Shown here piece by piece: positions 3,088-23,382 of a stretch of 23,382 bases of DNA. Position 1 is the stretch's first letter. Each line of letters starts with the position of its first letter. A program made the position numbers and the translations under genes. Under the pieces are notes generated by a model. The model was not told where the DNA came from, searched no databases, and was given only the letters and a program-made list of their open reading frames with translations. This stretch comes from a virus, in IMG/VR virus record IMGVR_UViG_3300025070_003546, positions 1 to 23,382 of that record. One strand, written 5' to 3'.

Positions 3088-3093
3088 CCTAGG

Positions 3094-3311: not shown

Positions 3312-3322
3312 ATTCTGTAACT

Positions 3323-3880: not shown

Positions 3881-3886
3881 ATAATC

Positions 3887-3915
3887 ACTCTAGCATAGTC
3901 TTGCCACTATGTCAA
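3887..3915 (-). promoter_or_regulatory. Promoter, left copy
   Basis: Mirror of 19468-19496: TTGACA, 17 bp, TAGAGT. Confidence 0.75.
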
Positions 3916-3925
3916 GTTCTTAAAT

Positions 3926-4011
3926 AAATAGCTTGTAACACACAATGTTCGTTTGGTTTCTCTATTTCCCTTGCAAGGTTTCCTCGTCTAACTATGTGCT
4001 ACAAGCTACTT
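3926..4011 (-). ncRNA. 17-bp-stem RNA module 2, left copy
   Basis: Mirror of 19372-19457; arms identical to module 1. Confidence 0.5.
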
Positions 4012-4074
4012 ACAGACTTTGAATGTCTAGTTTCCTAGAAATTTTATCACCCTAAGGTTCCTCTCGTCCTACAT

Positions 4075-4180
4075 AAATAGCTTGTAACACACTTACTTAT
4101 AAGCGTTTTCCACGCCCTACTTATAATTCGAACTCGCTATTGTGGTGCGAACTAATCTATAAATGTGCTACAAGCTACTT
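4075..4180 (-). ncRNA. 17-bp-stem RNA module 1, left copy
   Basis: Mirror of 19203-19308. Confidence 0.5.
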
Positions 4181-4223
4181 ACTTATACAATAACAACAAT
4201 GTTGTTAACAGAGTAAGTAACTT
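4172..4223 (-). ncRNA. Leader hairpin competing with module 1, left copy
   Basis: Mirror of 19160-19211: a 12-bp outer stem and 7-bp inner stem that share bases with module 1. Confidence 0.45.
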
Positions 4224-4232
4224 ATATAATCC

Positions 4233-4260
4233 ACCTTAGCAGATTATAAGTCTTTGTCAA
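4233..4260 (-). promoter_or_regulatory. Promoter, left copy
   Basis: Mirror of 19123-19150: TTGACA, 16 bp, TAAGGT, overlapping the end of the 41-codon gene. Confidence 0.7.
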
Positions 4261-4369
4261 GCTCTTTAGAAAGTTTTTTTTCAGCTGAACTTCTTAAGTC
4301 GTAGAAGTCTCTTTTAACTTCGTTACCGAATATATCCTCCCAAACAACTTCTGTTAAATGTTCTTTCAC
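4244..4369 (-). CDS. Small charged 41-residue protein, left copy
   Basis: GTG-started frame, mirror of 19014-19139. Confidence 0.6.
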   Translation of the reverse strand: MKEHLTEVVWEDIFGNEVKRDFYDLRSSAEKKLSKELDKDL

Positions 4370-4370
4370 T

Positions 4371-4511
4371 TTACCCTCCGTTCTCGTCGAACTCTATATC
4401 AATACCATTGTCGTCGCACCACTCGTAAAAAGTCTCTAAGAACCCATTTTCTAAATGGCTCTTATCAAAATATACTTCTTTACAAGCGTCGTTGTCTAAA
4501 AATATTTTCAC
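4371..4511 (-). CDS. Small acidic 46-residue protein, left copy
   Basis: GTG-started frame, mirror of 18872-19012, with a GGAGG ribosome site. Confidence 0.65.
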   Translation of the reverse strand: MKIFLDNDACKEVYFDKSHLENGFLETFYEWCDDNGIDIEFDENGG

Positions 4512-4519
4512 TTTTCCTC

Positions 4520-4792
4520 CTATACAGTTATATATTGGTTAACAATTTCAAGATGGTTAGAACTGATAGGTTTTTTACTTACCACCCTAACTAACTTCTC
4601 GTTACCTGCTACCCAGTAATATGGATTATCTTTGTAGTGTCCGTCAAAATCATCGACAGAATCTATTTCAAACCACATTTCTTCTACAAGTTCTTGGCTT
4701 GTCTTTTTATCGGCACCTTTAACTGCTAGATATGAGAACTCTTCGAATCCTGCCATCCTTTCTTCAAAGGTTATAATATATACTTTATCCAT
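4520..4792 (-). CDS. Unknown 90-residue protein, left copy
   Basis: Identical to 18591-18863; see that entry. Confidence 0.82.
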   Translation of the reverse strand: MDKVYIITFEERMAGFEEFSYLAVKGADKKTSQELVEEMWFEIDSVDDFDGHYKDNPYYWVAGNEKLVRVVSKKPISSNHLEIVNQYITV

Positions 4793-4857
4793 TATTCCTC
4801 GTTTTCCTTTTCTTCACTTTGCTGTCCGTCTATTATCGCTAATAACAATCTAATCAA
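4792..4857 (-). CDS. Possible 21-residue TTG-started peptide, left copy
   Basis: Mirror of 18526-18591. Its stop overlaps the start of the 90-residue gene. Confidence 0.3.
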   Translation of the reverse strand: MIRLLLAIIDGQQSEEKENEE

Positions 4858-4869
4858 TTTCTACCTTTC

Positions 4870-5052
4870 TTAGTTATGTCTTCTATTAATGGCATCTAGT
4901 GTCTCAAAGTTTTCCCGGCATACACTACTTGTCTTAATAGTGAACTCTTTGATACCTCTAGTAGACCAATCAAAAGATGGAACCATAGTGGCGTTAATAA
5001 AGATATCTTTGCTTTGATACTTTTTATTAAGTTCAGCCAATGTGTATTTCAT
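4870..5052 (-). CDS. Unknown 60-residue protein, left copy
   Basis: Identical to 18331-18513; see that entry. Confidence 0.78.
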   Translation of the reverse strand: MKYTLAELNKKYQSKDIFINATMVPSFDWSTRGIKEFTIKTSSVCRENFETLDAINRRHN

Positions 5053-5084
5053 TTTTTAACCTTTCTGTTTTAGCTTGTATTAAT

Positions 5085-5113
5085 AACTTAACAGAAAGTA
5101 GAACACTTGTCAA
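5085..5113 (-). promoter_or_regulatory. Promoter, left copy
   Basis: Mirror of 18270-18298: TTGACA, 17 bp, TAAGTT. Confidence 0.75.
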
Positions 5114-5382
5114 ATCAATACAATAAATTTCTTTTCTGAGTTAAATCCTATACTCCACGGAACTCCCGGAGCTTTTACCAAAATTTACCAACTCCAAAAT
5201 CTAGATGTAAAGTTTAGGTTTAGATTCCCATTTGCATTAAGATTCCCAATATTGTCCGGAACCTTTTGAATCCATTGGGCATTAGTGACTAGAAAATAGT
5301 CCGGACCTATATCTAAAGTATAGATTTAGATTTTTGAAATTTAAAATTTGGACGACTTTGGAATTCAGATTTTTTTTGATTG
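5114..5382. other. AT-rich gene-free stretch with short repeats, left copy
   Basis: Mirror of 18001-18269. I see no reading frame in it; repeats are described in the right-arm entry. Confidence 0.5.
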
Positions 5383-5387
5383 GAAAA

Positions 5388-5523
5388 TAAAAACGGACCC
5401 CTCCCCTATTGTCCCTAGACTCCTCTCCACAGGATTGGACCCGATGGAGCAGGGGATGCTTTCTCTTCTTTGGAAGAAATCACGAACGGTCTTACCCTTT
5501 TGAACTAGCCGTTCAGCCTTATA
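5388..5523 (-). ncRNA. Promoter-driven small RNA candidate, left copy
   Basis: Mirror of 17860-17995. Confidence 0.5.
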
Positions 5524-5529
5524 GTAATA

Positions 5530-5558
5530 ACTATAACATACCTTGCATACTTTGTCAA
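5530..5558 (-). promoter_or_regulatory. Strong promoter, left copy
   Basis: Mirror of 17825-17853: TTGACA, 17 bp, TATAGT. Here it lies about 130 bp downstream of the nuclease-like gene and reads in the same direction. Confidence 0.8.
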
Positions 5559-5560
5559 CT

Positions 5561-5580
5561 CATAAATAAAAAAATTTATG
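5561..5580. terminator. AT-rich hairpin, possible terminator, left copy
   Basis: Mirror of 17803-17822. CATAAAT and ATTTATG pair around a six-base loop. Here it lies between the nuclease-like gene and the first arm promoter. Confidence 0.4.
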
Positions 5581-5684
5581 TGCAGACTAGGTAGGGGGCT
5601 TATTTAGATTCGGGCTATGAACATTTAATACACCCCCCACTCATCTTACGTTTGCAATATAATTATGTTATACATATACATCGC

Positions 5685-6494
5685 TTAGTAATCTTCTACA
5701 CTTCTTTGTCCCCAAGCTCCTAGCATTGCATCTCTTCTTGGTTTCCAAGTTTGTCTGTTGGCGTGAGCAACAGCTACACTTATAATCTTTTCAAATTCTG
5801 CAGGCAGGTTCTGCTGTAGTTTAGCAAGATATTCACCCCAGTGGTAGAATTTGCTAGCCCCTTGGTAATTCATATACTCCCATTTTTTTTCACTAAAGTT
5901 ATACATATCACGGTAAAGTAGGGGCTCTCTTGCGTGATAAACATCATTGTCATACTCTTGTCTGTTGTATGTCATAAACTTATACGGCACAAGATAGCTT
6001 AAGCTCATATAGTTGCCTTTATTTTCTGCAACAACGTGCCTAAAAGTATCTTGAACGTCTTCAAAGTTGCGCTCATAGGTATACTTTGTTTGCCAATACC
6101 ATAACAAATACTTCAATGTGTTTGGTTTCCAAACTGATACGCCGATACCCGGCATAACGTAAACAACAAATTGTGCTTCGTGCTGTGGGTTTATCAATGC
6201 ACCCGGTGTTGGTGGCTTTAATTGACCACCGCTAAATTTAAATTCTGCAACTTCTAAAGCTACATTACCAGTTTCACAAGCTCTTGCATCTAGCTTTACT
6301 TGTATAGAAGTATCGCCAATAAAAGCATCTATGCCTTTTACTCTGTCTAATGTATCACCTTTAAGAGTTGACTTATACTCGCCATCCATCATACCCATAG
6401 AGCACATTGTATCTATTACAGCTTCACCTAAGTCGCCTAAGACAAGTGATTTGTAGAACTCGTGCAGTGGTTTTCCAGTTTCTTCATTTTCCAT
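5685..6494 (-). CDS. PD-(D/E)XK nuclease-like protein
   Basis: A 269-residue protein, probably a nuclease of the PD-(D/E)XK fold. In the sequence: Glu24 in GDLGEAVID, Asp56 in VKGIDAFIG, then Gln65-Val-Lys67 in the following strand. This is the order and spacing of the family's E, D and (E/Q)xK metal-binding residues; the rest of the protein is not recognisable. The start is ATG 6494, seven bases below a TAAAGT -10 box, so the message is probably leaderless; a longer frame to 6569 would run into the divergent gene. Its last seven codons and stop lie in the left inverted-repeat arm, whereas the same bases on the right arm are non-coding. A role in recombination, end processing or host DNA attack is inference. 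Confidence 0.8.
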   Translation of the reverse strand: MENEETGKPLHEFYKSLVLGDLGEAVIDTMCSMGMMDGEYKSTLKGDTLDRVKGIDAFIGDTSIQVKLDARACETGNVALEVAEFKFSGGQLKPPTPGALINPQHEAQFVVYVMPGIGVSVWKPNTLKYLLWYWQTKYTYERNFEDVQDTFRHVVAENKGNYMSLSYLVPYKFMTYNRQEYDNDVYHAREPLLYRDMYNFSEKKWEYMNYQGASKFYHWGEYLAKLQQNLPAEFEKIISVAVAHANRQTWKPRRDAMLGAWGQRSVEDY

Positions 6495-9438: not shown

Positions 9439-9873
9439 ATGAGTAAAGAGACAAAAGTCACTAGCTTGTTGAGACTTGCTAAGCAATTCCCACCACAGTT
9501 AGTGTCTACAATCAAAAAAGGCAACAGAGAAGAAGACTATATTAATCACTCTGTTATCGCTCAAAGATTGCTACAAGTCGTCGGTCCATATGACTGGGAC
9601 TTTACTGTAATCTACCAAGGTGATAACCCTATCGCTGTTAAAGGAACGCTTACTGTCGATATAGACGGCAAGACAGTTTCTATTGCAGGGGCAGGAACGC
9701 CACAAAACAATAAAGAAGATATCGGTGAACAAATTAAAAAAATGGAATCTGATGCTTTTAAAAGAGCGGCTTCAAAAATTGGTGCAGGTCTACACTTGTG
9801 GGCTCAAGACCAATACTTCCTCTTCGCCAATCTACTCAACGAGTTAGAATTGAGCAAAGACGAGGTTAACTAA
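9439..9873 (+). CDS. Rad52/Erf-like single-strand annealing protein
   Basis: A 144-residue protein. The segment from about 30 to 130 matches phage Rad52/Erf-type annealases: GPYDWDF (49-55), a beta strand LTVDIDGK, the SIAGAGTPQ turn, then SDAFKRAASKIGAGLHLW (104-121), the conserved helix seen as DALKRA...GIGLYLW in the family. Such proteins bind single-stranded DNA, anneal complementary strands and promote recombination without RecA. Ribosome site AGGAGATA precedes the ATG. It sits in one transcription unit with SSB, its usual partner. In an element with 5.7-kb inverted repeats this protein could drive repeat homogenisation or inversion of the centre (inference). Confidence 0.85.
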   Translation: MSKETKVTSLLRLAKQFPPQLVSTIKKGNREEDYINHSVIAQRLLQVVGPYDWDFTVIYQGDNPIAVKGTLTVDIDGKTVSIAGAGTPQNNKEDIGEQIKKMESDAFKRAASKIGAGLHLWAQDQYFLFANLLNELELSKDEVN

Positions 9874-11169: not shown

Positions 11170-11685
11170 ATGCCAGTAAGCGTAGTAACACTACAAGGAA
11201 ATCTAACAAATGTCGAAATGACAACAGGAAACACAGGTTCAGCTTTCACTAAAGCATCTTTAGCCGTAAGCGGTGGTAAAGATATGAATGGTGAAGACAA
11301 AGAAACATTGTGGTTTAATGTAAAGGCTTGGGGAGACTTAGCAGAAAATATTGCTGAGACTTTTCAAAATGCTCAAAACCAAGGTGAAAAATCCTTTAGA
11401 GCAATAGTAACAGGGAAAATTGTTCCCGAACAATGGGAAGATGCAAACGGTAATAAGAGAACAACTACAACTGTATTTGTAGAAGATATAGGTGTATCTC
11501 TTAAGTATTCTAAAGTTGGTAGCATAAACAAATCTACTAACCCAATGAATAGTGCCAAGAATTCTGCCGCTTTTTCACAGATGAAAAAAGGTAGCGATAT
11601 TCCGGCACCGGCACCTAAAGCTGAAGCAACTGCTGATGCTGCTCCCAAAGCAAACGAAGACGGAGGAAGTGAGGTTCCATTTTAA
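11170..11685 (+). CDS. ssb: Single-stranded DNA-binding protein
   Basis: 171 residues with an OB-fold SSB domain over residues 1-110: LQGNLTNVEMTTGNTG, ASLAVSGGK, TLWFNVKAWGDLAENIAE (the classic W-x-x-V-x-x-W/F-G strand) and VTGKIVPEQWEDANG. The flexible middle is rich in Ala, Pro and Ser. The tail ends in an acidic, hydrophobic tip (DGGSEVPF), like the DDDIPF tip by which bacterial SSBs recruit partner proteins. It protects single-stranded DNA in replication and works with annealing proteins like the one upstream. AGGAGATAAA precedes the ATG; the stop overlaps the next start as TAATG. Confidence 0.93.
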   Translation: MPVSVVTLQGNLTNVEMTTGNTGSAFTKASLAVSGGKDMNGEDKETLWFNVKAWGDLAENIAETFQNAQNQGEKSFRAIVTGKIVPEQWEDANGNKRTTTTVFVEDIGVSLKYSKVGSINKSTNPMNSAKNSAAFSQMKKGSDIPAPAPKAEATADAAPKANEDGGSEVPF

Positions 11686-11915
11686 TGGGATGGTTTAGAA
11701 AATTAGGTAAAGCAAACGATGCCCCAAAGCTAACTGCAATTGAGCAGGCTTGTGCTGATAAAGGTATTGATTTGAATAAGTTAATTAAGAAAAGCAAAGT
11801 TTCTGAGAACACTGTAAACAAATACAATGTTATGGATGCAAAGATTCCAACAGGAACGTTGAACAAGTTAGAAAAAGTGTTAGGAAAAGGTTCTTTAAGT
11901 AGTGCCTCAAAGTAA
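11685..11915 (+). CDS. Small HTH protein
   Basis: 76 residues with a basic N-terminus. Residues about 15-70 read as a lambda-repressor/Xre-like helix-turn-helix: TAIEQACADKGIDLNKLIKK, SKVSENTVNKY, PTGTLNKLEKVLGKG. Translation is coupled to SSB through TAATG. Probably a DNA-binding regulator or accessory factor. It overlaps the following HTH gene by 14 bases. Confidence 0.78.
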   Translation: MGWFRKLGKANDAPKLTAIEQACADKGIDLNKLIKKSKVSENTVNKYNVMDAKIPTGTLNKLEKVLGKGSLSSASK

Positions 11916-12643: not shown

Positions 12644-13284
12644 GCGAAGACAAAGTAGGCATTCAATTTACAAAACTTTCTGAGATTGCTGAGGCAGATG
12701 TAAATCCAAAAGACCACGACATAGGTGCCATACACGAATCTATGAACAGGTTTGGTTTTACCTCACCACTACTTATGAATGAAGCTACAGGGAAACTTGT
12801 TGCAGGTCACGGTAGAGTGGAAGCCTTAACTCAGAAAAAACAATTTAACGAAGACCCACCAGCAAATATAAATGTTGATGAAGACGGAGACTGGTTGATA
12901 CCAATTATCCGTGGTGTCTCATTCAAAGATGAGAACGAAGCTCAAGCATACTTGTTAGCAGATAACAGATTAGTAGAGCTTGGTGGTTGGAATACAAATG
13001 TTCTTTTAGAAGAACTTGAAAAATTAGCAGAGGCAACTGACTTGAGTGGAACTGGTTTCGACCAAGCTGACATTCAACAAATGTATGACGATATGGAAGC
13101 GTCAATAGACGAAGGTGAAGATAAAGGGTTACCAATGGGTAAACCATCTTATGAGATAGTGTTTGATGATGAAACTCAACAAGCACAGTTCTATTCTTTC
13201 GTTAGATGGCTTCAAGATAATTATGATGGTGAAACAATCGGAGAAAGATTTTTTCAGCATATAGAAATGTGTATGGGGGAATAA
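12640..13284 (+). CDS. ParB/Srx-like nuclease-domain protein
   Basis: 214 residues. The N-terminal 110 hold a ParB-like domain: KLSEI....VNPKDHD, the helix AIHESMNRFGFTSPLLMN, then LVAGHGRVEAL (53-63), whose GHGR corresponds to the nucleotide-binding G-x-x-R loop of ParB and IbrB-type proteins. NEAQAYLLADNRL follows, as in phage ParB-like proteins linked to DNA methylases. The C-terminus (from about 170) contains YEIVFDDETQQAQFYSFVRWLQ, an extra domain frequent in that group. The gene lies next to a PP-loop reductase-like gene, a pairing known from IbrA/IbrB. It probably binds or modifies nucleic acid rather than acting in segregation, since no ParA is present. Confidence 0.87.
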   Translation: MSEDKVGIQFTKLSEIAEADVNPKDHDIGAIHESMNRFGFTSPLLMNEATGKLVAGHGRVEALTQKKQFNEDPPANINVDEDGDWLIPIIRGVSFKDENEAQAYLLADNRLVELGGWNTNVLLEELEKLAEATDLSGTGFDQADIQQMYDDMEASIDEGEDKGLPMGKPSYEIVFDDETQQAQFYSFVRWLQDNYDGETIGERFFQHIEMCMGE

Positions 13285-15030: not shown

Positions 15031-15388
15031 TGATTATTATTGGGAACTTGCAGAACTAAACCCCGATGCAGTTGTTTATGAAGAATTCGAATCAGCTTAT
15101 ATGGGTATTGCTAAAAGGGTAGGTTTGAAGCCAGTTGCTATGTATGACACTGAAACAATCATCAATGCTATTGGTTATAACTTAATGCAAGACAAAGAGT
15201 TTATGGAAAATCTTAATAAAGAGCATACAGAGGAACAAGATAAGATAGATGCACTTTACGACGAGGCTAGCTCACACTTTGACTTTAACATTGCAGGTGG
15301 TATCTTTGGCGACAATAACGAGAATGGACCTATATTCTTGCAAATGCCCGACGTAAACTTTGATGAAAGGATAGAAGAAGATGAGTAG
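15020..15388 (+). CDS. Unknown acidic 122-residue protein
   Basis: GGAGGAG nine bases before ATG 15020 decides the start. The N-terminus ELAELNPDAVVYEEFESAYMGIA with a following GLKPVAMYD resembles small phage proteins of unknown role. The C-terminus is strongly acidic (FDERIEEDE), which can indicate a nucleic-acid mimic or protein-binding tail. Member of the coupled gene run. Confidence 0.78.
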   Translation: MAVNDYYWELAELNPDAVVYEEFESAYMGIAKRVGLKPVAMYDTETIINAIGYNLMQDKEFMENLNKEHTEEQDKIDALYDEASSHFDFNIAGGIFGDNNENGPIFLQMPDVNFDERIEEDE

Positions 15389-15479
15389 AAGATTCAGAAA
15401 AGAGTTACACGAGTGGACTCACGAGATAAATTGGAATACCTCTTTACCTAAATATGGCGAGGGTAAAAAGAAAAAATGA
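15381..15479 (+). CDS. Tiny basic 32-residue protein
   Basis: ATG frame beginning inside the end of the preceding gene and ending in an ATGA overlap with the ParB-like gene. AAGGATAGAAGA precedes the ATG. The peptide is basic at both ends (MSRRFRK and GKKKK) with two Trp residues between. The exact double overlap is typical of this operon and supports it as a real gene, though its function is unknown. Confidence 0.6.
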   Translation: MSRRFRKELHEWTHEINWNTSLPKYGEGKKKK

Positions 15480-16021
15480 GTGTATTTGAGGAGCAGCCAA
15501 TAAGTAATGTAGTTTGGAAACTAGCTAGTGAGTTAGACCCTAACGATTACAATCCAAACAGAGTTCTTACAGATGAGTTTAGAATATTAGCTTTGAACAT
15601 TCAAAGGTTTGGATGGATACAGCCAATACTTATAAACAAGAACAACATCATCATTGATGGTTTTCATAGATGGAAACTTGCTCAAGACAGTAAAGAACTC
15701 TATAAAATGTTCAGTGGCAGAGTGCCTTGCGTTGTTATGGACTTAGATGACAGAGAAGCAATGCTACTTACTATCAGAATAAACAGAGCTAAGGGCGTTC
15801 ACGAGGCTAGTTCTATGGCAAAGATTGCAAAGAAACTAGTAAATGAGTTTGGAATGACACCAGCTAACCTACAAGAAGAGCTTGGTATGGGAAGCAGAGA
15901 GGTCGAATTGTTACTTGCTGACACTGTATTCGTCATAAAAGAAATAGACAAATGGCAATACTCTAAAGCTTGGTATCCATATGAAGACAAAAAGAAGTAT
16001 GGCAACAGTGACGTTAACTAA
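15476..16021 (+). CDS. Second ParB-like protein (IbrB-like)
   Basis: 181 residues. LDPNDYNPNRV, the helix FRILALNIQRFGWIQPILINKN and IIIDGFHRW (58-66) form a ParB-like nuclease/CTPase-type domain, DGFHRW being the G-x-x-R nucleotide loop. From about 113 a helix-turn-helix follows (MAKIAKKLVNEFGMTPANLQEELGMGSREVELLL), matching IbrB and other stand-alone ParB proteins. It is one of two ParB-like genes around the PP-loop gene; IbrA/IbrB in E. coli is the best-known pair of this kind and acts in gene regulation. It has no long C-terminal dimerisation domain and no parA neighbour, so chromosome partition is unlikely. Confidence 0.87.
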   Translation: MSVFEEQPISNVVWKLASELDPNDYNPNRVLTDEFRILALNIQRFGWIQPILINKNNIIIDGFHRWKLAQDSKELYKMFSGRVPCVVMDLDDREAMLLTIRINRAKGVHEASSMAKIAKKLVNEFGMTPANLQEELGMGSREVELLLADTVFVIKEIDKWQYSKAWYPYEDKKKYGNSDVN

Positions 16022-16498: not shown

Positions 16499-17095
16499 AT
16501 GCAAAGAATAGAAGTAAGCGAAGAAATAATACTCAGTGCATCAATTGCTGCTGAGGAAGCAAAAAAAACTCATAACAATAAAGAATTATCGATTACTGAC
16601 CACGAAGGTTTATTTGCTGGTTATGTTGGTGAGTTTGTTTTTAATGATATAACTGGTGCTAAACCAGTAAACGGTAGTAGATACCACGACACTACAATTG
16701 GTGATTTTAAAATAGAAGTTAAGACAAAGCAAAGCACAGCAGAACCATTTTTATATGACCACAATAAAAACCCAGTATGGGAAGGGACAGTGCCTTGTTA
16801 TCTCGATAGCATTCATCAGAACCCGGAAACAAGACCGGATTGTTTTGTATTCTTTAACGTTAAATATAAAACAGCAAACAAAGAGGGGAAAATTTATAAA
16901 TACGAAGTTAATGATTTAGAGTGTATTTATTATGGTGGTTATATGCTTTTTGAAGATTATATAGATAAAAGACGCTTTATACCAGCCAAGCAACAATATT
17001 CAACTAACAGTAGATTAGTTCATACTGACCAGTGGAACATATACTGGAGTGAATTGACTTACAAAGAATTACTTCAATATAGCTTGACAAACTAA
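16499..17095 (+). CDS. Second PD-(D/E)XK nuclease-like protein
   Basis: 198 residues. Glu45 in GYVGEFVFND, Asp64 in SRYHDTTIGDF (or Asp69) and Glu73-Val-Lys75 in IEVKTK give the ordered E...D...ExK residues of the fold. This pattern is shared with phage and bacterial endonucleases and with Holliday-junction or restriction-type enzymes. The C-terminal half is rich in aromatic residues and has a segment (RPDCFVFFNVKY) typical of the second half of this fold. The ATG follows AGGAG. The promoter of the next gene overlaps its last codons. Whether it acts on host DNA, invading phage or recombination intermediates cannot be read from the sequence. Confidence 0.82.
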   Translation: MQRIEVSEEIILSASIAAEEAKKTHNNKELSITDHEGLFAGYVGEFVFNDITGAKPVNGSRYHDTTIGDFKIEVKTKQSTAEPFLYDHNKNPVWEGTVPCYLDSIHQNPETRPDCFVFFNVKYKTANKEGKIYKYEVNDLECIYYGGYMLFEDYIDKRRFIPAKQQYSTNSRLVHTDQWNIYWSELTYKELLQYSLTN

Positions 17096-17140: not shown

Positions 17141-17674
17141 ATGCAATCTGTAAAGGTTGACGTTAAAGAAGATACAGTAAACATAAGAGACACTTGGCTT
17201 GAGAATGCCAAAAAAGCTAAAGAATTTGGTGGTAAAAGATTTCTTGGGTTTACAGAAAAAGGCGCTGAAGTATGGGTTTCATATCTTTTAGATTTAGAAA
17301 CTGGTTCTTTGACTGCCAAGTCATCACACGATTTTAGTGCATTGATGTATGAAGACGCACAACTTGCGACAGCAAGAGTTACCGTTCCTAGAAACAGGGT
17401 TCAAAGAACCTCGACAGAGAGAATGGTTAGAGCTAATGCTAAAAACGCAGGTGGTAAAGTAACACTATTTACTTTGAGTTACATTCAAAGATTATTAGAT
17501 ATGATAGATGGTAAGAACCCTAGGGCATTCGTCAAAGGTAAACCAACTAGCCTATTTATGAGTTACCTAGCAGGTGCTATCTATGAGGGTGACCTAGATG
17601 AAGAAAATGGTTTTACTTTCAGACAAGCTACAACTGTAGCAAAGTTACCTATGGGTGAATACTTTATAGTCTAA
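17141..17674 (+). CDS. Unknown 177-residue protein ending exactly at the repeat junction
   Basis: AAAGGGAGA precedes the ATG; the gene has its own promoter 30 bp upstream. N-terminal half: a short acidic-basic stretch, a Lys-rich helix (LENAKKAKEFGGKRF) and beta-like LGFTEKGAEVWVSYLLDLETG. The centre is basic (RVTVPRNRVQRTSTERMVRANAKNAGGK), fitting a nucleic-acid contact. The stop TAA uses bases 17672-17674, the last of which is the first base of the right arm. The C-terminus may therefore be truncated by the event that placed the repeat here, or the repeat may have been joined precisely behind an intact gene. No family is recognised. Confidence 0.8.
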   Translation: MQSVKVDVKEDTVNIRDTWLENAKKAKEFGGKRFLGFTEKGAEVWVSYLLDLETGSLTAKSSHDFSALMYEDAQLATARVTVPRNRVQRTSTERMVRANAKNAGGKVTLFTLSYIQRLLDMIDGKNPRAFVKGKPTSLFMSYLAGAIYEGDLDEENGFTFRQATTVAKLPMGEYFIV

Positions 17675-17802
17675 CAAAGAAGTGTAGAAGATTACTAAGC
17701 GATGTATATGTATAACATAATTATATTGCAAACGTAAGATGAGTGGGGGGTGTATTAAATGTTCATAGCCCGAATCTAAATAAGCCCCCTACCTAGTCTG
17801 CA

Positions 17803-17822
17803 CATAAATTTTTTTATTTATG
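17803..17822. terminator. AT-rich hairpin, possible terminator
   Basis: CATAAAT, six T, ATTTATG: a 7-bp perfect dyad just upstream of the first arm promoter. It could end transcription of the gene at 17141, though the T run is in the loop rather than after the stem. Confidence 0.4.
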
Positions 17823-17824
17823 AG

Positions 17825-17853
17825 TTGACAAAGTATGCAAGGTATGTTATAGT
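17825..17853 (+). promoter_or_regulatory. Strong promoter at the inner edge of the arm
   Basis: TTGACA (17825-17830), 17 bp, TATAGT (17848-17853). It is the closest match to consensus in the window, and no reading frame follows within 470 bp, so its product should be an RNA. Confidence 0.82.
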
Positions 17854-17859
17854 TATTAC

Positions 17860-17995
17860 TATAAGGCTGAACGGCTAGTTCAAAAGGGTAAGACCGTTCG
17901 TGATTTCTTCCAAAGAAGAGAAAGCATCCCCTGCTCCATCGGGTCCAATCCTGTGGAGAGGAGTCTAGGGACAATAGGGGAGGGGTCCGTTTTTA
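17860..17995 (+). ncRNA. Promoter-driven small structured RNA candidate
   Basis: Predicted to start about 17860 and end at a T-rich run (17990-18000). GAACGG (17869-17874) pairs with CCGTTC (17894-17899). Further on, TCCCCT (17927-17932) pairs with AGGGGA (17976-17981). That stem encloses GTCC/GGAC and then TCCT/AGGA, giving one long irregular hairpin. It contains no plausible reading frame. It might be a regulatory RNA or a 6S-like rod, but I recognise no known family. Confidence 0.5.
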
Positions 17996-18000
17996 TTTTC

Positions 18001-18269
18001 CAATCAAAAAAAATCTGAATTCCAAAGTCGTCCAAATTTTAAATTTCAAAAATCTAAATCTATACTTTAGATATAGGTCCGGACTATTTTCTAGTCACTA
18101 ATGCCCAATGGATTCAAAAGGTTCCGGACAATATTGGGAATCTTAATGCAAATGGGAATCTAAACCTAAACTTTACATCTAGATTTTGGAGTTGGTAAAT
18201 TTTGGTAAAAGCTCCGGGAGTTCCGTGGAGTATAGGATTTAACTCAGAAAAGAAATTTATTGTATTGAT
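18001..18269. other. AT-rich gene-free stretch with short repeats
   Basis: No reading frame seen. Contains TGGGAATCT twice with an 18-bp period, two TTGGTAAA-like units, CCCAAT pairing with ATTGGG around GGTTCCGGAC, and a GTCCGGAC palindrome (18077-18084). This could be an operator or origin-like region, or just spacer. Confidence 0.45.
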
Positions 18270-18298
18270 TTGACAAGTGTTCTACTTTCTGTTAAGTT
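18270..18298 (+). promoter_or_regulatory. Promoter of the small-gene cluster
   Basis: TTGACA, 17 bp, TAAGTT; start predicted about 18305, 26 bp before the first ATG. It should drive the five small reading frames up to 19139. Confidence 0.78.
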
Positions 18299-18330
18299 AT
18301 TAATACAAGCTAAAACAGAAAGGTTAAAAA

Positions 18331-18513
18331 ATGAAATACACATTGGCTGAACTTAATAAAAAGTATCAAAGCAAAGATATCTTTATTAACGCCACTATGG
18401 TTCCATCTTTTGATTGGTCTACTAGAGGTATCAAAGAGTTCACTATTAAGACAAGTAGTGTATGCCGGGAAAACTTTGAGACACTAGATGCCATTAATAG
18501 AAGACATAACTAA
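18331..18513 (+). CDS. Unknown 60-residue protein
   Basis: AGAAAGG ribosome site eight bases before the ATG. Basic protein with an N-terminal helix (YTLAELNKKYQSKD) and a Thr/Ser-rich middle (KEFTIKTSSV). The first gene of a cluster of small genes in the arm. No family is recognised. Confidence 0.8.
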   Translation: MKYTLAELNKKYQSKDIFINATMVPSFDWSTRGIKEFTIKTSSVCRENFETLDAINRRHN

Positions 18514-18525
18514 GAAAGGTAGAAA

Positions 18526-18591
18526 TTGATTAGATTGTTATTAGCGATAATAGACGGACAGCAAAGTGAAGAAAAGGAAAACGAGGAATAA
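18526..18591 (+). CDS. Possible 21-residue TTG-started peptide
   Basis: Reads hydrophobic then acidic (IRLLLAIIDG, then an EEKENEE tail). AGAAAGG lies upstream of the TTG, and its TAA overlaps the next ATG by one base, as in other coupled genes here. It could instead be a leader peptide or simply the ribosome-binding region of the next gene. Confidence 0.32.
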   Translation: MIRLLLAIIDGQQSEEKENEE

Positions 18592-18863
18592 TGGATAAAG
18601 TATATATTATAACCTTTGAAGAAAGGATGGCAGGATTCGAAGAGTTCTCATATCTAGCAGTTAAAGGTGCCGATAAAAAGACAAGCCAAGAACTTGTAGA
18701 AGAAATGTGGTTTGAAATAGATTCTGTCGATGATTTTGACGGACACTACAAAGATAATCCATATTACTGGGTAGCAGGTAACGAGAAGTTAGTTAGGGTG
18801 GTAAGTAAAAAACCTATCAGTTCTAACCATCTTGAAATTGTTAACCAATATATAACTGTATAG
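18591..18863 (+). CDS. Unknown 90-residue protein
   Basis: ACGAGGAATA precedes the ATG. Alternating strands and helices: VYIITFEERMAGFEEFSYLAVKGAD, then KTSQELVEEMWFEIDSVDDF and a C-terminal KLVRVVSKKP strand. Acidic overall, small and compact, suggesting a single alpha/beta domain. No family is recognised. The next gene starts eight bases after its stop behind GGAGG. Confidence 0.82.
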   Translation: MDKVYIITFEERMAGFEEFSYLAVKGADKKTSQELVEEMWFEIDSVDDFDGHYKDNPYYWVAGNEKLVRVVSKKPISSNHLEIVNQYITV

Positions 18864-18871
18864 GAGGAAAA

Positions 18872-19012
18872 GTGAAAATATTTTTAGACAACGACGCTTG
18901 TAAAGAAGTATATTTTGATAAGAGCCATTTAGAAAATGGGTTCTTAGAGACTTTTTACGAGTGGTGCGACGACAATGGTATTGATATAGAGTTCGACGAG
19001 AACGGAGGGTAA
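18872..19012 (+). CDS. Small acidic 46-residue protein (GTG start)
   Basis: GGAGG six bases before the GTG. Acidic, with two Cys and several aromatic residues (FLETFYEWCDDNG) and a DEN-rich end. Spaced between two coupled genes with almost no gap, which supports it being real despite its length. Confidence 0.68.
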   Translation: MKIFLDNDACKEVYFDKSHLENGFLETFYEWCDDNGIDIEFDENGG

Positions 19013-19013
19013 A

Positions 19014-19139
19014 GTGAAAGAACATTTAACAGAAGTTGTTTGGGAGGATATATTCGGTAACGAAGTTAAAAGAGACTTCTACGACTTAAGAAGTTCAGCT
19101 GAAAAAAAACTTTCTAAAGAGCTTGACAAAGACTTATAA
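19014..19139 (+). CDS. Small charged 41-residue protein (GTG start)
   Basis: Starts one base after the previous stop; GGAGGG within the previous gene's last codons is its ribosome site. Highly charged and helical (KRDFYDLRSSAEKKLSKELDKD). Its final codons contain the -35 box of the next promoter. Confidence 0.62.
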   Translation: MKEHLTEVVWEDIFGNEVKRDFYDLRSSAEKKLSKELDKDL

Positions 19140-19150
19140 TCTGCTAAGGT
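19123..19150 (+). promoter_or_regulatory. Promoter of the hairpin-RNA region
   Basis: TTGACA (19123-19128), 16 bp, TAAGGT (19145-19150), overlapping the 41-codon gene. The predicted start is immediately upstream of the first hairpin. Confidence 0.72.
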
Positions 19151-19159
19151 GGATTATAT

Positions 19160-19211
19160 AAGTTACTTACTCTGTTAACAACATTGTTGTTATTGTATAA
19201 GTAAGTAGCTT
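19160..19211 (+). ncRNA. Leader hairpin competing with module 1
   Basis: AAGTTACTTACT (19160-19171) pairs with AGTAAGTAGCTT (19200-19211), one T-G pair. Inside, TAACAAC and GTTGTTA pair (19176-19192). Bases 19203-19211 are also the 5' end of the 17-bp stem of module 1, so the two folds exclude each other. Confidence 0.48.
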
Positions 19212-19308
19212 GTAGCACATTTATAGATTAGTTCGCACCACAATAGCGAGTTCGAATTATAAGTAGGGCGTGGAAAACGCTTATAAGTAAGTGTGTTACA
19301 AGCTATTT
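19203..19308 (+). ncRNA. 17-bp-stem RNA module 1
   Basis: AAGTAGCTTGTAGCACA (19203-19219) pairs along all 17 bases (two G-T pairs) with TGTGTTACAAGCTATTT (19292-19308). The loop includes a further hairpin, TTATAA...GCGT GGAAA ACGC...TTATAA. Driven by the promoter at 19123. No known family is recognised; GTTCGAAT in the loop is not in a tRNA context. Confidence 0.55.
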
Positions 19309-19371
19309 ATGTAGGACGAGAGGAACCTTAGGGTGATAAAATTTCTAGGAAACTAGACATTCAAAGTCTGT

Positions 19372-19457
19372 AAGTAGCTTGTAGCACATAGTTAGACGAG
19401 GAAACCTTGCAAGGGAAATAGAGAAACCAAACGAACATTGTGTGTTACAAGCTATTT
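19372..19457 (+). ncRNA. 17-bp-stem RNA module 2
   Basis: The same two 17-base arms as module 1 (19372-19388 and 19441-19457) enclose a different, shorter interior with CCTTGCAAGG (19405-19414). Between the modules TCTAG-GAAA-CTAGA makes a GNRA-capped hairpin. Shared arms with divergent loops suggest a duplicated RNA family. Confidence 0.55.
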
Positions 19458-19467
19458 ATTTAAGAAC

Positions 19468-19496
19468 TTGACATAGTGGCAAGACTATGCTAGAGT
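19468..19496 (+). promoter_or_regulatory. Promoter of the large structured region
   Basis: TTGACA (19468-19473), 17 bp, TAGAGT (19491-19496), ten bases after module 2. Start predicted about 19503. Confidence 0.77.
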
Positions 19497-19502
19497 GATT
19501 AT

Positions 19503-20060
19503 ATTGATAGCGTGAAGTTATCACGCACGGCAACATTTCTTCTGAATGGATACATTCGGCGACTGGGAAATGTGGTTATGTGAGAGACAAACTAGGGAGA
19601 ATTACTAGGGGAATATGCTTCTTGCTCGGGTGAGACCGAGACTCACGGGAAGTGACGGAGGAGCCGGCACCTTGCGGGGTGGAGAACCGGAGCACCTAGC
19701 CAGTAAAAAGAGACAAAGAATTGACTTTGTTAACATTCTGTAGATGACTTGGAAGTTGCAGGACACCTTGGGTAACTGAGGTCGGCTGAGATTAAGCCAT
19801 TAGGTAAGAGAGAGAATGTTATGGGACCGCCCCACTAAATCTGCGAGTTTCCGAAAATGGAAATGTTTGTGTAAACCGTATAGGTCTCATTCTGTGTAAA
19901 AAGAGTTGGAGGGTGAAAGTAACGGGTTCATCTGAATATAACTCAAGTGATAACTCCACGGTATCAATAAAACGGTCCGGACCCTCTTAAGTGAGGTAAT
20001 GGTCAGATACTGGAGGCTGGAATCTAACTGGAGACTGGATTCAGCTGCAAAAAGAAATTA
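19503..20060 (+). ncRNA. Large ornate structured RNA candidate
   Basis: About 560 nt with no reading frame of note, locally more GC-rich than its surroundings. Hairpins: GCGTGA/TCACGC (19510-19526); ACATTTC/GAAATGT (19533-19573) enclosing CTGAATG-GATA-CATTCGG; CTCGG/CCGAG (19625-19640); CACC/GGTG within a CCGG-flanked block (about 19663-19690); ACAAAG/CTTTGT; TTTCC/GGAAA; and CCTC/GAGG. Also a GGTCCGGACC palindrome (19974-19983) and an 18-nt tandem repeat (20009-20044). The size and style recall large phage RNAs of the GOLLD/ROOL kind, but I cannot match a sequence motif. The 3' end is not defined. Confidence 0.48.
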
Positions 20061-20071
20061 AGTTACAGAAT

Positions 20072-20100
20072 TTGACAAGTTATTCAAAACCTGCTAACTT
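20072..20100 (+). promoter_or_regulatory. Promoter
   Basis: TTGACA, 17 bp, TAACTT. No gene follows for over 300 bp; the downstream 20107-20260 is AT-rich and holds no reading frame that I trust. Confidence 0.65.
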
Positions 20101-20260
20101 GGATATATATTCAATACGAATGTGAAATAGTCGTTCTGAGAATATTAAGAAAATTTGGCTTTTTGACAAAAGAATATTTAAATCAAACTTTAGTAAGATG
20201 ATTTTAAGAGTTGGCTCGTAAAGTGTCCAAAGTCTCGAAAAGAAACTTCTTGCAATATGC

Positions 20261-20289
20261 TTGACACACACAAAGACGGTGAAGATTAT
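20261..20289 (+). promoter_or_regulatory. Promoter candidate
   Basis: TTGACA, 17 bp, GATTAT. The first -10 base differs from TANNNT. Confidence 0.45.
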
Positions 20290-20295
20290 CCTAGG

Positions 20296-20430
20296 TGATA
20301 TCTCAACGACACTGGAGGTCCCTGTCAGCCCCTGTTGTTCATAGTGAGCTTATCGGAAACTACCTGCACAGAGTAAGGGGTTAACGCCCCAGTTGCAACT
20401 AAACAGCTCTAAGATTGTCTTACTAAGGTT
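20296..20430 (+). ncRNA. Hairpin-rich transcript candidate
   Basis: Contains GGGG-TTAACG-CCCC (20377-20390), then the AGTTGCAACT palindrome (20391-20400), plus nested CTGT/ACAG and TAGT/ACTA pairings upstream. Could be a small RNA or the leader of the 54-residue frame that follows. Confidence 0.35.
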
Positions 20431-20433
20431 TGA

Positions 20434-20462
20434 TTGACAGAAGATTGTTGTGAGCATATTTG
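20434..20462 (+). promoter_or_regulatory. Promoter candidate
   Basis: TTGACA, 17 bp, TATTTG. It overlaps the start of the 54-residue frame; if used, that frame would have to start further down or the RNA would be non-coding. Confidence 0.45.
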
Positions 20463-20614
20463 GATTGCTAACACGAGGGAATGAGCGAGTCGCACTTGCT
20501 ACTGATTACGCAGTAAAACATTTTAATAGTGGAGCACGCAAACGTAAAGGCGATAAATACCGGTATGCTCTCACAAGAATTTTCTGTAAAGTTTTGGTTA
20601 CTAAGAAAAATTAG
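20450..20614 (+). CDS. Small basic 54-residue protein candidate (GTG start)
   Basis: The frame reads like a folded basic protein: NERVALATDYAVKHF, then SGARKRKGDKYRYALTRIF. AGAAG lies seven bases before the GTG. An overlapping promoter-like sequence (20434-20462) argues against it, and it lies among RNA-like sequences, so it is only moderately supported. Confidence 0.42.
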   Translation: MSIFGLLTRGNERVALATDYAVKHFNSGARKRKGDKYRYALTRIFCKVLVTKKN

Positions 20615-20675
20615 TGGAGACGCATCCTAGGATGTAGGTTGAAACCCATCTAGAAAACCTTGCAAGGTTCAAACC

Positions 20676-20918
20676 TTGGGGGACTGGAGTAGTCAGATAG
20701 ATGAGGAAGATGAGCCACGTAGAAACATTCGAGCAATCGAATATAAACGGGTAACCATAGAATTAAAGAGTGATGACATAGCAATGAGGTGGAAAGCCAA
20801 TCGTGTGTGTTGCTGTGTAGCTCTACAAAAACGGAACCGTGAAGGACACACGACTGTGCGGTTCCCCGTAAGGGAAATAGTGTCGGAGCTTTGGATTCCC
20901 TTTAATCCTACTTTGTGA
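20676..20918 (+). CDS. Uncertain 80-codon frame (TTG start)
   Basis: TTG with AAGG upstream. The first 45 residues look protein-like (IDEEDEPRRNIRAIEYKRVTIELKSDDIA). The second half has an odd run of Cys (RVCCCVALQKRN) that corresponds to strong hairpins: GGAACCG/CGGTTCC with an inner CACA/TGTG, and CCC-GTAA-GGG. It ends at a dyad (20911-20932) right on the stop. Either a real small protein or part of a structured RNA. Confidence 0.38.
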   Translation: MGDWSSQIDEEDEPRRNIRAIEYKRVTIELKSDDIAMRWKANRVCCCVALQKRNREGHTTVRFPVREIVSELWIPFNPTL

Positions 20919-20932
20919 ATTTTTTCACAAGG
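20911..20932. terminator. Dyad at the end of the 80-codon frame
   Basis: CTTTGTGAA and TTCACAAGG pair (9 bp, one T-G) around four T. No T run follows, so terminator activity is uncertain. Confidence 0.35.
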
Positions 20933-21047
20933 ATATAAAATAAATCTGAAATAAAGTGAATTGTCTTCAATAAGTGCTAAACTAGGTTTCATAAGACATA
21001 CCCCCTTTCTCACTTGCGAGGTGTAGATTTTGAGGGCTAGTCTTTTT
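20933..21047. other. Gene-free stretch before the strong terminator
   Basis: AT-rich; no reading frame, promoter or strong hairpin seen. Together with 21083-21185, which holds GTGTGGA/TCCACAC (21132-21159) and CTCTA/TAGAG pairings, it separates the RNA region from the zinc-ribbon gene. Confidence 0.4.
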
Positions 21048-21082
21048 AGAGAGGGGAGCTGAAGACTCCTCTTTCTTTTTTT
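21048..21082 (+). terminator. Strong Rho-independent terminator
   Basis: AGAGAGGGGAG (21048-21058) pairs along all 11 bases (two G-T) with CTCCTCTTTCT (21066-21076) around CTGAAGA, followed by seven T. It closes the outward transcription of the RNA region. Confidence 0.88.
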
Positions 21083-21185
21083 CCTCAAGCTTATGTTCTC
21101 TAAAGACGTAAGGTCCTAGAGACGTGGGGCAGTGTGGAGCCTTTCAACAGAATCCACACACGATGAAAAAAATTTTCAATAAGAG

Positions 21186-21213
21186 TTGACAAAGATTACA
21201 GAAAGATTAAAGT
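21186..21213 (+). promoter_or_regulatory. Promoter of the zinc-ribbon gene
   Basis: TTGACA, 16 bp, TAAAGT (21208-21213); predicted start about 21220, at an in-frame ATG. Confidence 0.75.
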
Positions 21214-21261
21214 AAGAGTATGAATATTAAAAAAACTATAAAACAAAAAGGGGGTGTGAAA

Positions 21262-21507
21262 ATGTCCGAACAAACAATAGACAAACGTTTCGTTTGTAAA
21301 AAATGTTCCATGGTAACTAAATCTAACGGTTACTGTAACAATGGTCATAAAGTTGTTAGCTCAAGAGCTTTGCTCAAGAGTATGTTCTTTGAAAATACAG
21401 ATAATACAACTCTGTTATTAACAAATAACGGCAACTTCGACAATAGCTATAGTTTGCAATCCGACTTCGAAGATGCGGGTTATTTACTAGACGCTTTGCG
21501 CGAATAG
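21262..21507 (+). CDS. Small zinc-ribbon protein
   Basis: 81 residues. Cys12-x2-Cys15-x9-Cys25-x3-His29 forms a likely zinc site at the N-terminus; the rest is acidic and Asn-rich (TDNTTLLLTNNGNFDN). AAAGGGGGTGTGAAA before ATG 21262 decides this start. An upstream in-frame ATG (21220) sits at the predicted transcription start and would add 14 basic residues by leaderless initiation. Asp71 here is Glu71 in the left copy. The zinc site and size suit a transcriptional or DNA-binding cofactor; not identified further. Confidence 0.84.
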   Translation: MSEQTIDKRFVCKKCSMVTKSNGYCNNGHKVVSSRALLKSMFFENTDNTTLLLTNNGNFDNSYSLQSDFEDAGYLLDALRE

Positions 21508-21531
21508 GTCCATTTGCTTTGAACGGGGTTC

Positions 21532-21572
21532 GCTGTTACCTGTCAACAGAAAACAGCTCCAAATATTTTTTT
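21532..21572 (+). terminator. Terminator after the zinc-ribbon gene
   Basis: GCTGTT (21532-21537) pairs with AACAGC (21552-21557) around a 14-nt loop, followed after eight bases by seven T (21566-21572). Confidence 0.62.
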
Positions 21573-21581
21573 ATTTAATCC

Positions 21582-21610
21582 TTGACAAGTAGAAGATTAT
21601 TTGTTAGGGT
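21582..21610 (+). promoter_or_regulatory. Promoter of the structured leader and DUF2958 gene
   Basis: TTGACA, 17 bp, TAGGGT (21605-21610); predicted start about 21617, the first base of the leader's closing stem. Confidence 0.78.
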
Positions 21611-21616
21611 TAAAGT

Positions 21617-21750
21617 ATTAACCGACAAGCTAGGAGTAAAAATCTTAGGACTAGAGACTGAAAGTTTCGGGAGAGGTGGGAAACCATAACTTATAAACCT
21701 CTTAATCACCCGAGGAGTAAGTCAAAGGTATAAGGACCTAGCAGGTTAAT
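21617..21750 (+). ncRNA. Structured 5' leader (riboswitch-like) of the DUF2958 gene
   Basis: Closing stem in two parts: ATTAACC (21617-21623) with GGTTAAT (21744-21750), and GCTAGG (21629-21634) with CCTAGC (21737-21742). Inside is a long hairpin: TTCGGG (21666-21671) with CCCGAG (21709-21714, one T-G), directly stacked on AGAGGT (21672-21677) with ACCTCT (21697-21702). A GACT/AGTC helix may add a third arm. The ribosome site (AAGGAGA) lies outside it. The fold looks like a ligand- or protein-sensing leader; I do not recognise a known class. Confidence 0.62.
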
Positions 21751-21778
21751 CAAGGTTAACAAAACAAAAGGAGATACG

Positions 21779-22093
21779 ATGAAATTAGTAACCAAAGAAC
21801 TTGAAAACAAGTTCCCCGAAATATATGAGACACAAAGACAAGAGGACCCAATAGTGCAGGCGAAATACTTTTGCCCGTGGAATAATTGGACTTGGTATGC
21901 AACAGAGTTTGATAAGGAAGAGGGAATCTTCTACGGACTTGTAGCAGGAGCCGAAGTTGAATTAGGATACTTTGACCTTGAGAGCTTTGAAATAGTAACA
22001 GGACCATTTGGAATGAAAGTAGAGAGAGACCTTTACTGGACACCAACAGCACTAAGCGAAGTAGAGAAGATGGAAAGGGAAGCACGTGGATAA
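21779..22093 (+). CDS. DUF2958 family protein
   Basis: 104 residues, full length for DUF2958: MKLVTKELENKFP, DPIVQAKYFCPWNNWTWYATEFD, IFYGLVAGAEVELGYFDL and GPFGMKVERDLYW, the family's conserved blocks in the usual order. The biochemical role of DUF2958 is unknown; members are common on plasmids, phages and integrative elements. AAGGAGATACG precedes the ATG. It is the only gene here with a long, folded leader, so its expression is probably controlled after transcription starts. Its last codons overlap the next small gene. Confidence 0.9.
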   Translation: MKLVTKELENKFPEIYETQRQEDPIVQAKYFCPWNNWTWYATEFDKEEGIFYGLVAGAEVELGYFDLESFEIVTGPFGMKVERDLYWTPTALSEVEKMEREARG

Positions 22094-22226
22094 CATAAAC
22101 TACGACCTTATAGGAACAATCTTTATATCCATTATGGCTACAAAGTTTGTTTGGGATTTTCAAGGTTGGGCTGAGAAGTGGATTAGCCGAGCTGAAAGAA
22201 AGTATAAAAGTTATTTGACAAAGTAA
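22086..22226 (+). CDS. Small single-span membrane protein (GTG start)
   Basis: 46 residues starting inside the last codons of the DUF2958 gene; GGGAAG lies before the GTG. Residues about 7-25 (DLIGTIFISIMATKFVWDF) are long and hydrophobic enough for one membrane span, followed by a basic tail (KWISRAERKYK). Tight coupling suggests it works with, or is regulated together with, DUF2958. Its end overlaps the next promoter. Confidence 0.58.
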   Translation: MDNINYDLIGTIFISIMATKFVWDFQGWAEKWISRAERKYKSYLTK

Positions 22227-22243
22227 ACATACTTTGCTAGATT
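22215..22243 (+). promoter_or_regulatory. Promoter
   Basis: TTGACA (22215-22220), 17 bp, TAGATT (22238-22243), overlapping the end of the small membrane-protein gene and driving the next two genes. Confidence 0.78.
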
Positions 22244-22274
22244 GGTATCAAGACAAACAGAAAGTAGGACGAAA

Positions 22275-22505
22275 ATGAACAGACCGATATTTGAAATCGC
22301 AAAGGACATTAGGAAAGATTGGACGAATGCGAATCCATATGCTCTGCCTTATTTGGAGGCTATGGACGACCTTTACTCAATCGAAGACAAATATATATTT
22401 GATAGTGCAAAAAGTGTTATTAGATATTTTCTCGCTAACGCTACCTCTTGGAAAGGGGAAGTTGCTAGGGAGATTAAACAAGAACTGAAAAATATGGTTG
22501 CTTAG
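22275..22505 (+). CDS. Unknown 76-residue protein
   Basis: ATG 22275 behind TAGGACGA is chosen; the upstream TTG at 22242 overlaps the -10 box and cannot be the start. Mixed helical protein with FEIAKDIRKDW, an aromatic centre (YALPYLEAMDDLYSIEDKY) and a basic C-terminal helix (KGEVAREIKQELKNM). No family is recognised. Confidence 0.82.
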   Translation: MNRPIFEIAKDIRKDWTNANPYALPYLEAMDDLYSIEDKYIFDSAKSVIRYFLANATSWKGEVAREIKQELKNMVA

Positions 22506-22530
22506 CGGCAACGGAAACAAGAGGAAAACA

Positions 22531-22878
22531 ATGAATAAAGAATTACAAAGATACTGGGATGCTTATGAACTAAGCGACCTAGTGGATAAGAACAGGAATA
22601 AAAGTGGATACGTAAGTCCACATAACATAGGTTATGGATTGTTTAGGCATACAGTGCGTAATGCTGTTAATACAGTCCCTAAAGATTTAAGGGACGAATA
22701 CCTACAGACATTTGTAAATAAAGACCTTACAAAGATAACTAAATGGTATAAAGAGTCCAAGGCTAAAGAGTGGAGACGTTATTCTAAAAAGAATACTATC
22801 GACAAGAATAAGTCCTACTACTTGAATGGATACAAAGATATCCCTTTCGAGAAGAGACCGGGATTCGAATATAAGTAA
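22531..22878 (+). CDS. Unknown basic protein of 115 residues
   Basis: AGAGGAAAA precedes the ATG. Very rich in Lys, Tyr and Asn. YWDAYELSDLVDKNRNKSGY and NIGYGLFRHTVRNAVNTVP suggest a helical core; KITKWYKESKAKEWRRYSKK is strongly basic, so nucleic-acid binding is plausible. A strong terminator follows. No family is recognised. Confidence 0.82.
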   Translation: MNKELQRYWDAYELSDLVDKNRNKSGYVSPHNIGYGLFRHTVRNAVNTVPKDLRDEYLQTFVNKDLTKITKWYKESKAKEWRRYSKKNTIDKNKSYYLNGYKDIPFEKRPGFEYK

Positions 22879-22933
22879 TTAACATCCGGGGGTAAGGATT
22901 TTGTTTTTGTTTTGCCGTGCCCCCAAGATTTAG

Positions 22934-22981
22934 TAGGAATTAAACCCATCCAGTGAGGTGGGTATTCCTACAAAGTTTTTT
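22934..22981 (+). terminator. Rho-independent terminator
   Basis: TAGGAAT/ATTCCTA (7 bp) and ACCCA/TGGGT (5 bp), then CC/GG around AGTGA, followed by CAAAG and six T. A GGGGG/CCCCC pairing with a T-rich loop lies just upstream (22886-22925) and may assist. Confidence 0.85.
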
Positions 22982-22992
22982 CCAAAATATGC

Positions 22993-23020
22993 TTGACAAA
23001 TAAAAACTTGCCACTAGTAT
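22993..23020 (+). promoter_or_regulatory. Promoter of the outermost gene
   Basis: TTGACA (22993-22998), 16 bp, TAGTAT (23015-23020). The predicted start falls at the ATG at 23028. Confidence 0.65.
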
Positions 23021-23060
23021 ATTATATATGAACGAAAACAAATTAAAGAAAGAAGATAAA

Positions 23061-23366
23061 ATGACTAACTTAGCCCAAGCCGTCGAAACTTATATGACTA
23101 CTGCACCAGTAACAATGACTATGGTTTTCAACGTTGAAAACAAATCATTCACAACAGGTGAAACTGTTGAGGGTGCTTACACAGTCAGCGAATTGGTTAA
23201 CGCCATGAGCAGACAACCACAAGAATCCATCTCACAAGCTATTGACGTTTTAGCTCAACTTACAGCTATGAACGATGAGCGATACGATATGGCTTATTGG
23301 TCAAACGTGGCTACTGCTGTCTTAGGCATAGAGAATGCTCAAGACGAAACTGGCTTAAATCTCTAA
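23061..23366 (+). CDS. Unknown 101-residue protein, outermost gene
   Basis: The ATG at 23061 follows AAAGAAAGAAGATAAA; the alternative ATG at 23028 lies at the predicted transcription start and would add 11 mostly charged residues by leaderless initiation. Thr-rich N-terminal strands (TYMTTAPVTMTMVFNVENKSFTTGE) are followed by helices (VSELVNAMSRQ, SISQAIDVLAQLTAM). The beta-then-alpha pattern suggests one compact domain; no family is recognised. The sequence ends 16 bases after the stop. Confidence 0.82.
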   Translation: MTNLAQAVETYMTTAPVTMTMVFNVENKSFTTGETVEGAYTVSELVNAMSRQPQESISQAIDVLAQLTAMNDERYDMAYWSNVATAVLGIENAQDETGLNL

Positions 23367-23382
23367 AGGTTAAAAGCTACTG

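Follow-up and report, generated by a model that had tools for sequence, protein, structure and literature searches.

The gene for a DUF2958 protein in this uncultured phage is preceded by a non-coding stretch of 134 nt (21617-21750) with a predicted, stem-closed fold and low divergence, which was not found outside one near-identical pair of related contigs. We tentatively favour reading it as a lineage-specific structured 5′ UTR of a phage mRNA rather than as a switch tied to DUF2958, with constitutive protection of the 5′ end as the likeliest function. Positions refer to the window, i.e. the entire stretch of 23,382 nt that was analysed, unless a related contig is named.

Promoter, fold and duplication of the leader

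The promoter upstream of the leader combines a perfect -35 element with an extended (TGT before TAGGGT) but weak -10 element (3/6), and because of this weakness it is missing from the computed promoter list. Transcription would start at about 21617, the A of ATTAACC, judging from the promoter sequence. The two-part 13-bp closing stem that the original prediction had placed at this start was confirmed as 7 + 6 bp (ATTAACC/GGTTAAT and GCTAGG/CCTAGC) with a 5x1 internal loop between the halves. The inner arm carries two symmetric 3x3 internal loops and the enclosed hairpin, which was likewise recovered with its asymmetric bulge: it has 13 pairs (P4 TTTCGGG/CCCGAGG, P5 AGAGGT/ACCTCT) and a one-sided bulge of 6 nt (TAATCA, 21703-21708). 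Pairing ends 28 nt short of the ATG (21779), as had been proposed. In the linker (Table 1), the Shine-Dalgarno sequence has a mean unpaired probability of 0.96 in the window and 0.91 in contig G001.

Table 1 Features of the leader, its gene and the associated repeats (window coordinates unless a contig is named).
Feature	Position	Strand	Details and basis
Promoter	21582-21610	+	TTGACA (21582-21587), 17-nt spacer, TGT TAGGGT (-10 at 21605-21610); sequence
P1a, 5′ strand	21617-21623	+	ATTAACC, opening with the predicted transcription start; 7 bp, fully complementary to 21744-21750
P1b, 5′ strand	21629-21634	+	GCTAGG, partner 21737-21742; 6 bp, predicted fold
P2, P3a, P3b, 5′ strands	21643-21659	+	21643-21646, 21650-21652, 21656-21659; MFE fold
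Bulged hairpin	21665-21715	+	P4 21665-21671/21709-21715, P5 21672-21677/21697-21702; fold, pair probability mostly ~0.8
P3b, P3a, P2, 3′ strands	21720-21736	+	21720-21723, 21727-21729, 21733-21736; MFE fold
Closing stem, 3′ strand	21737-21750	+	CCTAGC (21737-21742), A, GGTTAAT (21744-21750); sequence, fold
Linker, unstructured, A-rich	21751-21778	+	Shine-Dalgarno AAGGAG (21768-21773); unpaired probability
DUF2958 gene, 104 aa	21779-22093	+	PF11171, E 1.3e-13, 51.7 bits versus a cut-off of 21
Second leader domain copy, identical	1633-1766	-	Within the inverted duplication
Multi-copy inverted arms	19198-19465; G007 16718-16791, 17913-18481; G008 11448-11733

The domain folds at -34.4 kcal/mol compared with a mean of -25.8 for dinucleotide shuffles (z -2.4; 3/300 shuffles as good), the full 162-nt interval reaches z -2.7 (4/300 as good) and a 169-nt stretch z -2.2, while the inner part by itself does not fold significantly better than its shuffles (z -1.1). 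The leader thus folds better than about 99% of the shuffles, which gives its structure moderate support; a z of about -2.4 is reached by many real leaders and also by some accidents. A closing stem of at least 7 bp placed at the start occurred in 2.5% of the shuffles and in 0.01% when a nested stem of at least 6 bp was added, a figure whose significance is overstated because the nested-stem test was framed after the structure had been seen. Pair probabilities for P2, P3a and P3b range from 0.3 to 0.8. P1b competes with an alternative hairpin (21630-21635/21643-21648), and the fold with this hairpin in place of the inner closing stem lies just 0.7-0.8 kcal/mol above the best one in both the window and G001. 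Once 52 nt of the coding region are included, a different structure is preferred for G001. According to these models the pairing is not unique and the internal fold is ambiguous.

The impression that no known RNA class fits the leader was borne out, with no Rfam model recognising it: the window had no match in Rfam 15 at the gathering threshold, a relaxed search of the leader returned an unrelated snoRNA model as the best hit (14.9 bits, E 9), and the tRNA/tmRNA search found none. A coding function of the leader was considered and rejected, as the domain contains no ATG and no plus-strand ORF of at least 60 aa. Also rejected was a second GGTTAA (21754-21759) as an alternative closing strand, which is broken in G001 by a change at 21755.

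The leader is present twice (21617-21778, plus strand; 1605-1766, minus strand) because the ends of the window form a 5,709-bp inverted duplication (1-5709 and 17674-23382) around a 12-kb unique core. Its single mismatch (1909/21474) leads to a D/E difference between the two copies of a small cysteine-rich protein. Because the same junction recurs in G001 (with an inverted start of 87 bp) and in G006 (where each end carries 118 bp in inverted form), the genome probably does possess this long inverted repeat, rather than one assembly having produced it as an artefact.

Conservation and association with DUF2958

The only other carriers of the leader that we found are the contigs G001 and G002 (near-identical, 97% identical), of which G001 is about 88-96% identical to the window over the shared parts and 99.9% identical to G002. 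Between the window and G001, the domain differs at 2/134 positions (21706 and 21707), both in the hairpin bulge, and all 39 of the 39 predicted pairs are unchanged, in a comparison confined to near-identical sequences. At fourfold-degenerate sites of nearby genes, 15/117 positions (12.8%) differ versus 1.5% in the leader (Fisher p 0.0006). Because the leader diverges far less than these sites, something in its region is likely under selection, as far as sequence comparison can tell. The RNA fold cannot be singled out as its target, since the promoter stretch 21508-21616 diverges just as little (1/109 positions differ, with one substitution, at 21595, in the promoter itself), and recent exchange might be the source of the low divergence.

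Searches with exact 21-mers, scans of related phage genomes by nhmmer and by a covariance model, and blastn against phages and plasmids recovered no leader beyond G001 and G002; a gapped loop-motif pattern matched 86 loci, the real ones of which were the known kin only. On this sequence evidence the leader appears restricted to one phage lineage.

The original prediction had linked the leader to DUF2958 and had proposed collecting the upstream regions of this gene from other contigs. In this screen the link was not supported: none of 48 non-kin DUF2958 loci was credibly matched by the leader's covariance model, which was built from two near-identical sequences and could therefore miss highly diverged copies. 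In 31 of the 36 other DUF2958 loci where the distance was measurable, an ORF lies within 90 nt upstream, leaving no room for the leader; this result holds regardless of the covariance model, on which the spacing does not depend. As some of the loci are near-duplicates, the independent cases are fewer than 48 and 36. The structure model of the DUF2958 protein, computed from 31 sequences, is confident (pLDDT 95.7), and no PDB structure matched its fold significantly (lowest E 0.71), so that an RNA-binding fold is not indicated and was rejected as a candidate. In the literature searched, DUF2958 came up in two papers, with a single mention in each. The leader offers no route yet to the function of DUF2958, because elsewhere the gene occurs without it.

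An RNA-rich region next to the leader

The region 19013-21219 contains almost no plausible gene and consists of sites resembling promoters with long structured stretches behind them, which gave no match in an Rfam search. A recombination protein encoded at 9439-9870 is common to four relatives, one with 100% aa identity and three distant phages with 56-61%. Comparison with these four relatives indicates that some of the neighbouring stretches are genuine.

An 85-nt RNA domain absent from Rfam is located at 19297-19382 in the window, 13082-13167 in G001 and 15401-15490 in G009. Its core GTAGGACGAGAGGAACCTTnGGGTGATAAAATTTC...GACATTCAAAGTCT is near-invariant in G009, where the recombination protein is only 56% identical, and its closing stem and hairpin consist of other bases there, with the pairing restored. 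Within IMG/VR, the pattern of this domain matched the two near-kin contigs and G009 only. Directly before it in G009 (about 15328-15405) lies a tRNA-like sequence, GGGGGCAAATGG...GGGTTCGATTCCCGATGCCTCCA, for which ARAGORN makes no call.

The window, G001, G007 and G008 all contain repeats of the arms TAGCTTGTAGCACA / TGTGTTACAAGCTA. The multi-copy inverted arms GTAGCTTGTAGCACA / TGTGTTACAAGCTAT occur in fixed alternating orientation and enclose variable inserts of 50-110 nt; the window arm copy 19154-19470 folds at -96 kcal/mol. Two further long structured non-coding stretches span 19500-20060 and 20115-20440. Shortly downstream of a promoter, the former (z -3.2) contains complementary arms that lie far apart (19499-19524/19947-19972). 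The latter is matched by a homologous stretch of G008 (E 1.6e-10) and contains a hairpin in which GGGG-CCCC in the window is replaced by GAGA-TCTC in G001, a compensated change. In the intergenic gaps of G007, many genes have their own promoter-like GTAACC-N14-22-GTCTAAGTA, with a spacer that often holds an inverted repeat. No sequence kinship was detectable between the leader and the neighbouring RNAs or those of the relatives.

Closing stems lie close after other promoters as well, at ~19157 and 19499-19524/19947-19972 in the window, at 16531, 17775 and 22594 in G007 and on the minus strand of G008, in a survey of the observed sequences alone. These cases favour the reading of the leader as a structured 5′ UTR. 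One of them, G007 22594-22655, is a short closed domain directly before the Shine-Dalgarno sequence and ATG of an ORF. The leader could belong to the products of a so far undescribed, RNA-rich programme of this uncultured phage group serving a shared purpose, an idea that we regard as doubtful. With equal doubt, the suite of such a programme might comprise the tandem long-stem units, the conserved 85-nt domain and RNAs of 300-500 nt, several of which have a closing stem close to their individual promoters. Taken alone, the leader is one more unclassified phage 5′ UTR, and the surrounding RNAs that match no Rfam model are the better lead. If their expression were shown, at least one RNA, which distant phages share despite rebuilt stems, would constitute a tractable new RNA family.

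Possible functions and comparison with known systems

We infer that transcription starts at the base of the closing stem, that the RNA folds in vivo and that the 5′ end, sealed in this helix, has a protective role. If transcription does start at the predicted 21617, no more than a few nt would separate the stem from the first base of the transcript; the folded end would protect the transcript from 5′-end-dependent decay, constitutively, while the ribosome site downstream would stay free and open on the A-rich linker. By analogy with known leaders, a stabilising sealed 5′ end would be the most economical mechanism. The strongest challenge to this reading is that any stretch of 160 bases folds somehow and that the fold is functionless, the DNA being kept as a promoter or by recent exchange. 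The z of only about -2.4, the lack of significance of the inner part, the two near-isoenergetic folds and the equally conserved upstream DNA all fit this explanation, yet shuffles rarely produce this closing-stem architecture at the predicted start, and none of the 39 pairs is hit by a substitution; we consider it unlikely. Slightly less likely still is an operator bound by DUF2958 or another phage protein that regulates its own synthesis. The leader is positioned directly 5′ of one gene, and an irregular helix with a bulged hairpin, as found here, is a common protein-binding shape; however, the bulge is the very part in which G001 departs from the window, the leader is missing from homologous DUF2958 genes, and the confident DUF2958 model resembles no PDB structure significantly.

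The structured RNAs with closing stems in the adjacent 19150-20440 raise the alternative that the leader is itself an independent small RNA of this region, with the gene expressed by read-through. No terminator follows the domain, a Shine-Dalgarno sequence and ATG lie within 28 nt downstream, and the lack of similarity to the other RNAs also speaks against this reading, which we judge as improbable as the operator. The original prediction of a ligand-binding riboswitch controlling translation or transcription of the DUF2958 gene fares worst and is very improbable. A compact 5′ domain with two folds of near-equal energy, low divergence and no match to a known class would suit it. However, no terminator was called in the leader and anti-Shine-Dalgarno pairing is absent from both candidate folds, so neither form of expression platform is present; the stems are invariant in the carriers found, giving no covariation evidence in either direction; and riboswitch classes normally recur, whereas this leader was found neither upstream of DUF2958 or related genes elsewhere nor in the other genomes searched. 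The existence of a fold is the sole positive support for the riboswitch reading, because the homologue, linkage and mechanism tests added none. Riboswitch control and autoregulation are improbable and unsupported, and the constitutively protected 5′ UTR is the explanation that we carry into the following comparison.

The large ornate phage RNAs ROOL and GOLLD, whose function is unknown (PMC12286853), share with the leader that they are structured non-coding RNAs in phage genomes, and the neighbouring stretch 19500-20060 is similar to them in general look. Unlike these RNAs, the leader is short (134 nt) and belongs to a 5′ UTR, and neither the leader nor its neighbours match Rfam models. Structured candidate 5′ leaders, among them phage elements such as manA and wcaG, were found by comparative genomics (PMC2864571). 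Like them, the leader is a structured element that would occupy the 5′ UTR of a gene carried by an uncultured phage, but whereas they were defined by comparison of homologues, it is known from two near-identical lineages only and has no Rfam match. Closest to the function that we propose are the stabilising 5′ stem-loops established in bacteria, e.g., those of recA in Acinetobacter and vacA in Helicobacter (PMC7509114), which likewise place a stem in the 5′ UTR near the transcript start and need no switch. The phage leader differs in being larger and irregular and in preceding a phage gene, and its stabilising effect would follow by analogy; downstream of its stem it presents an open, strong Shine-Dalgarno sequence.
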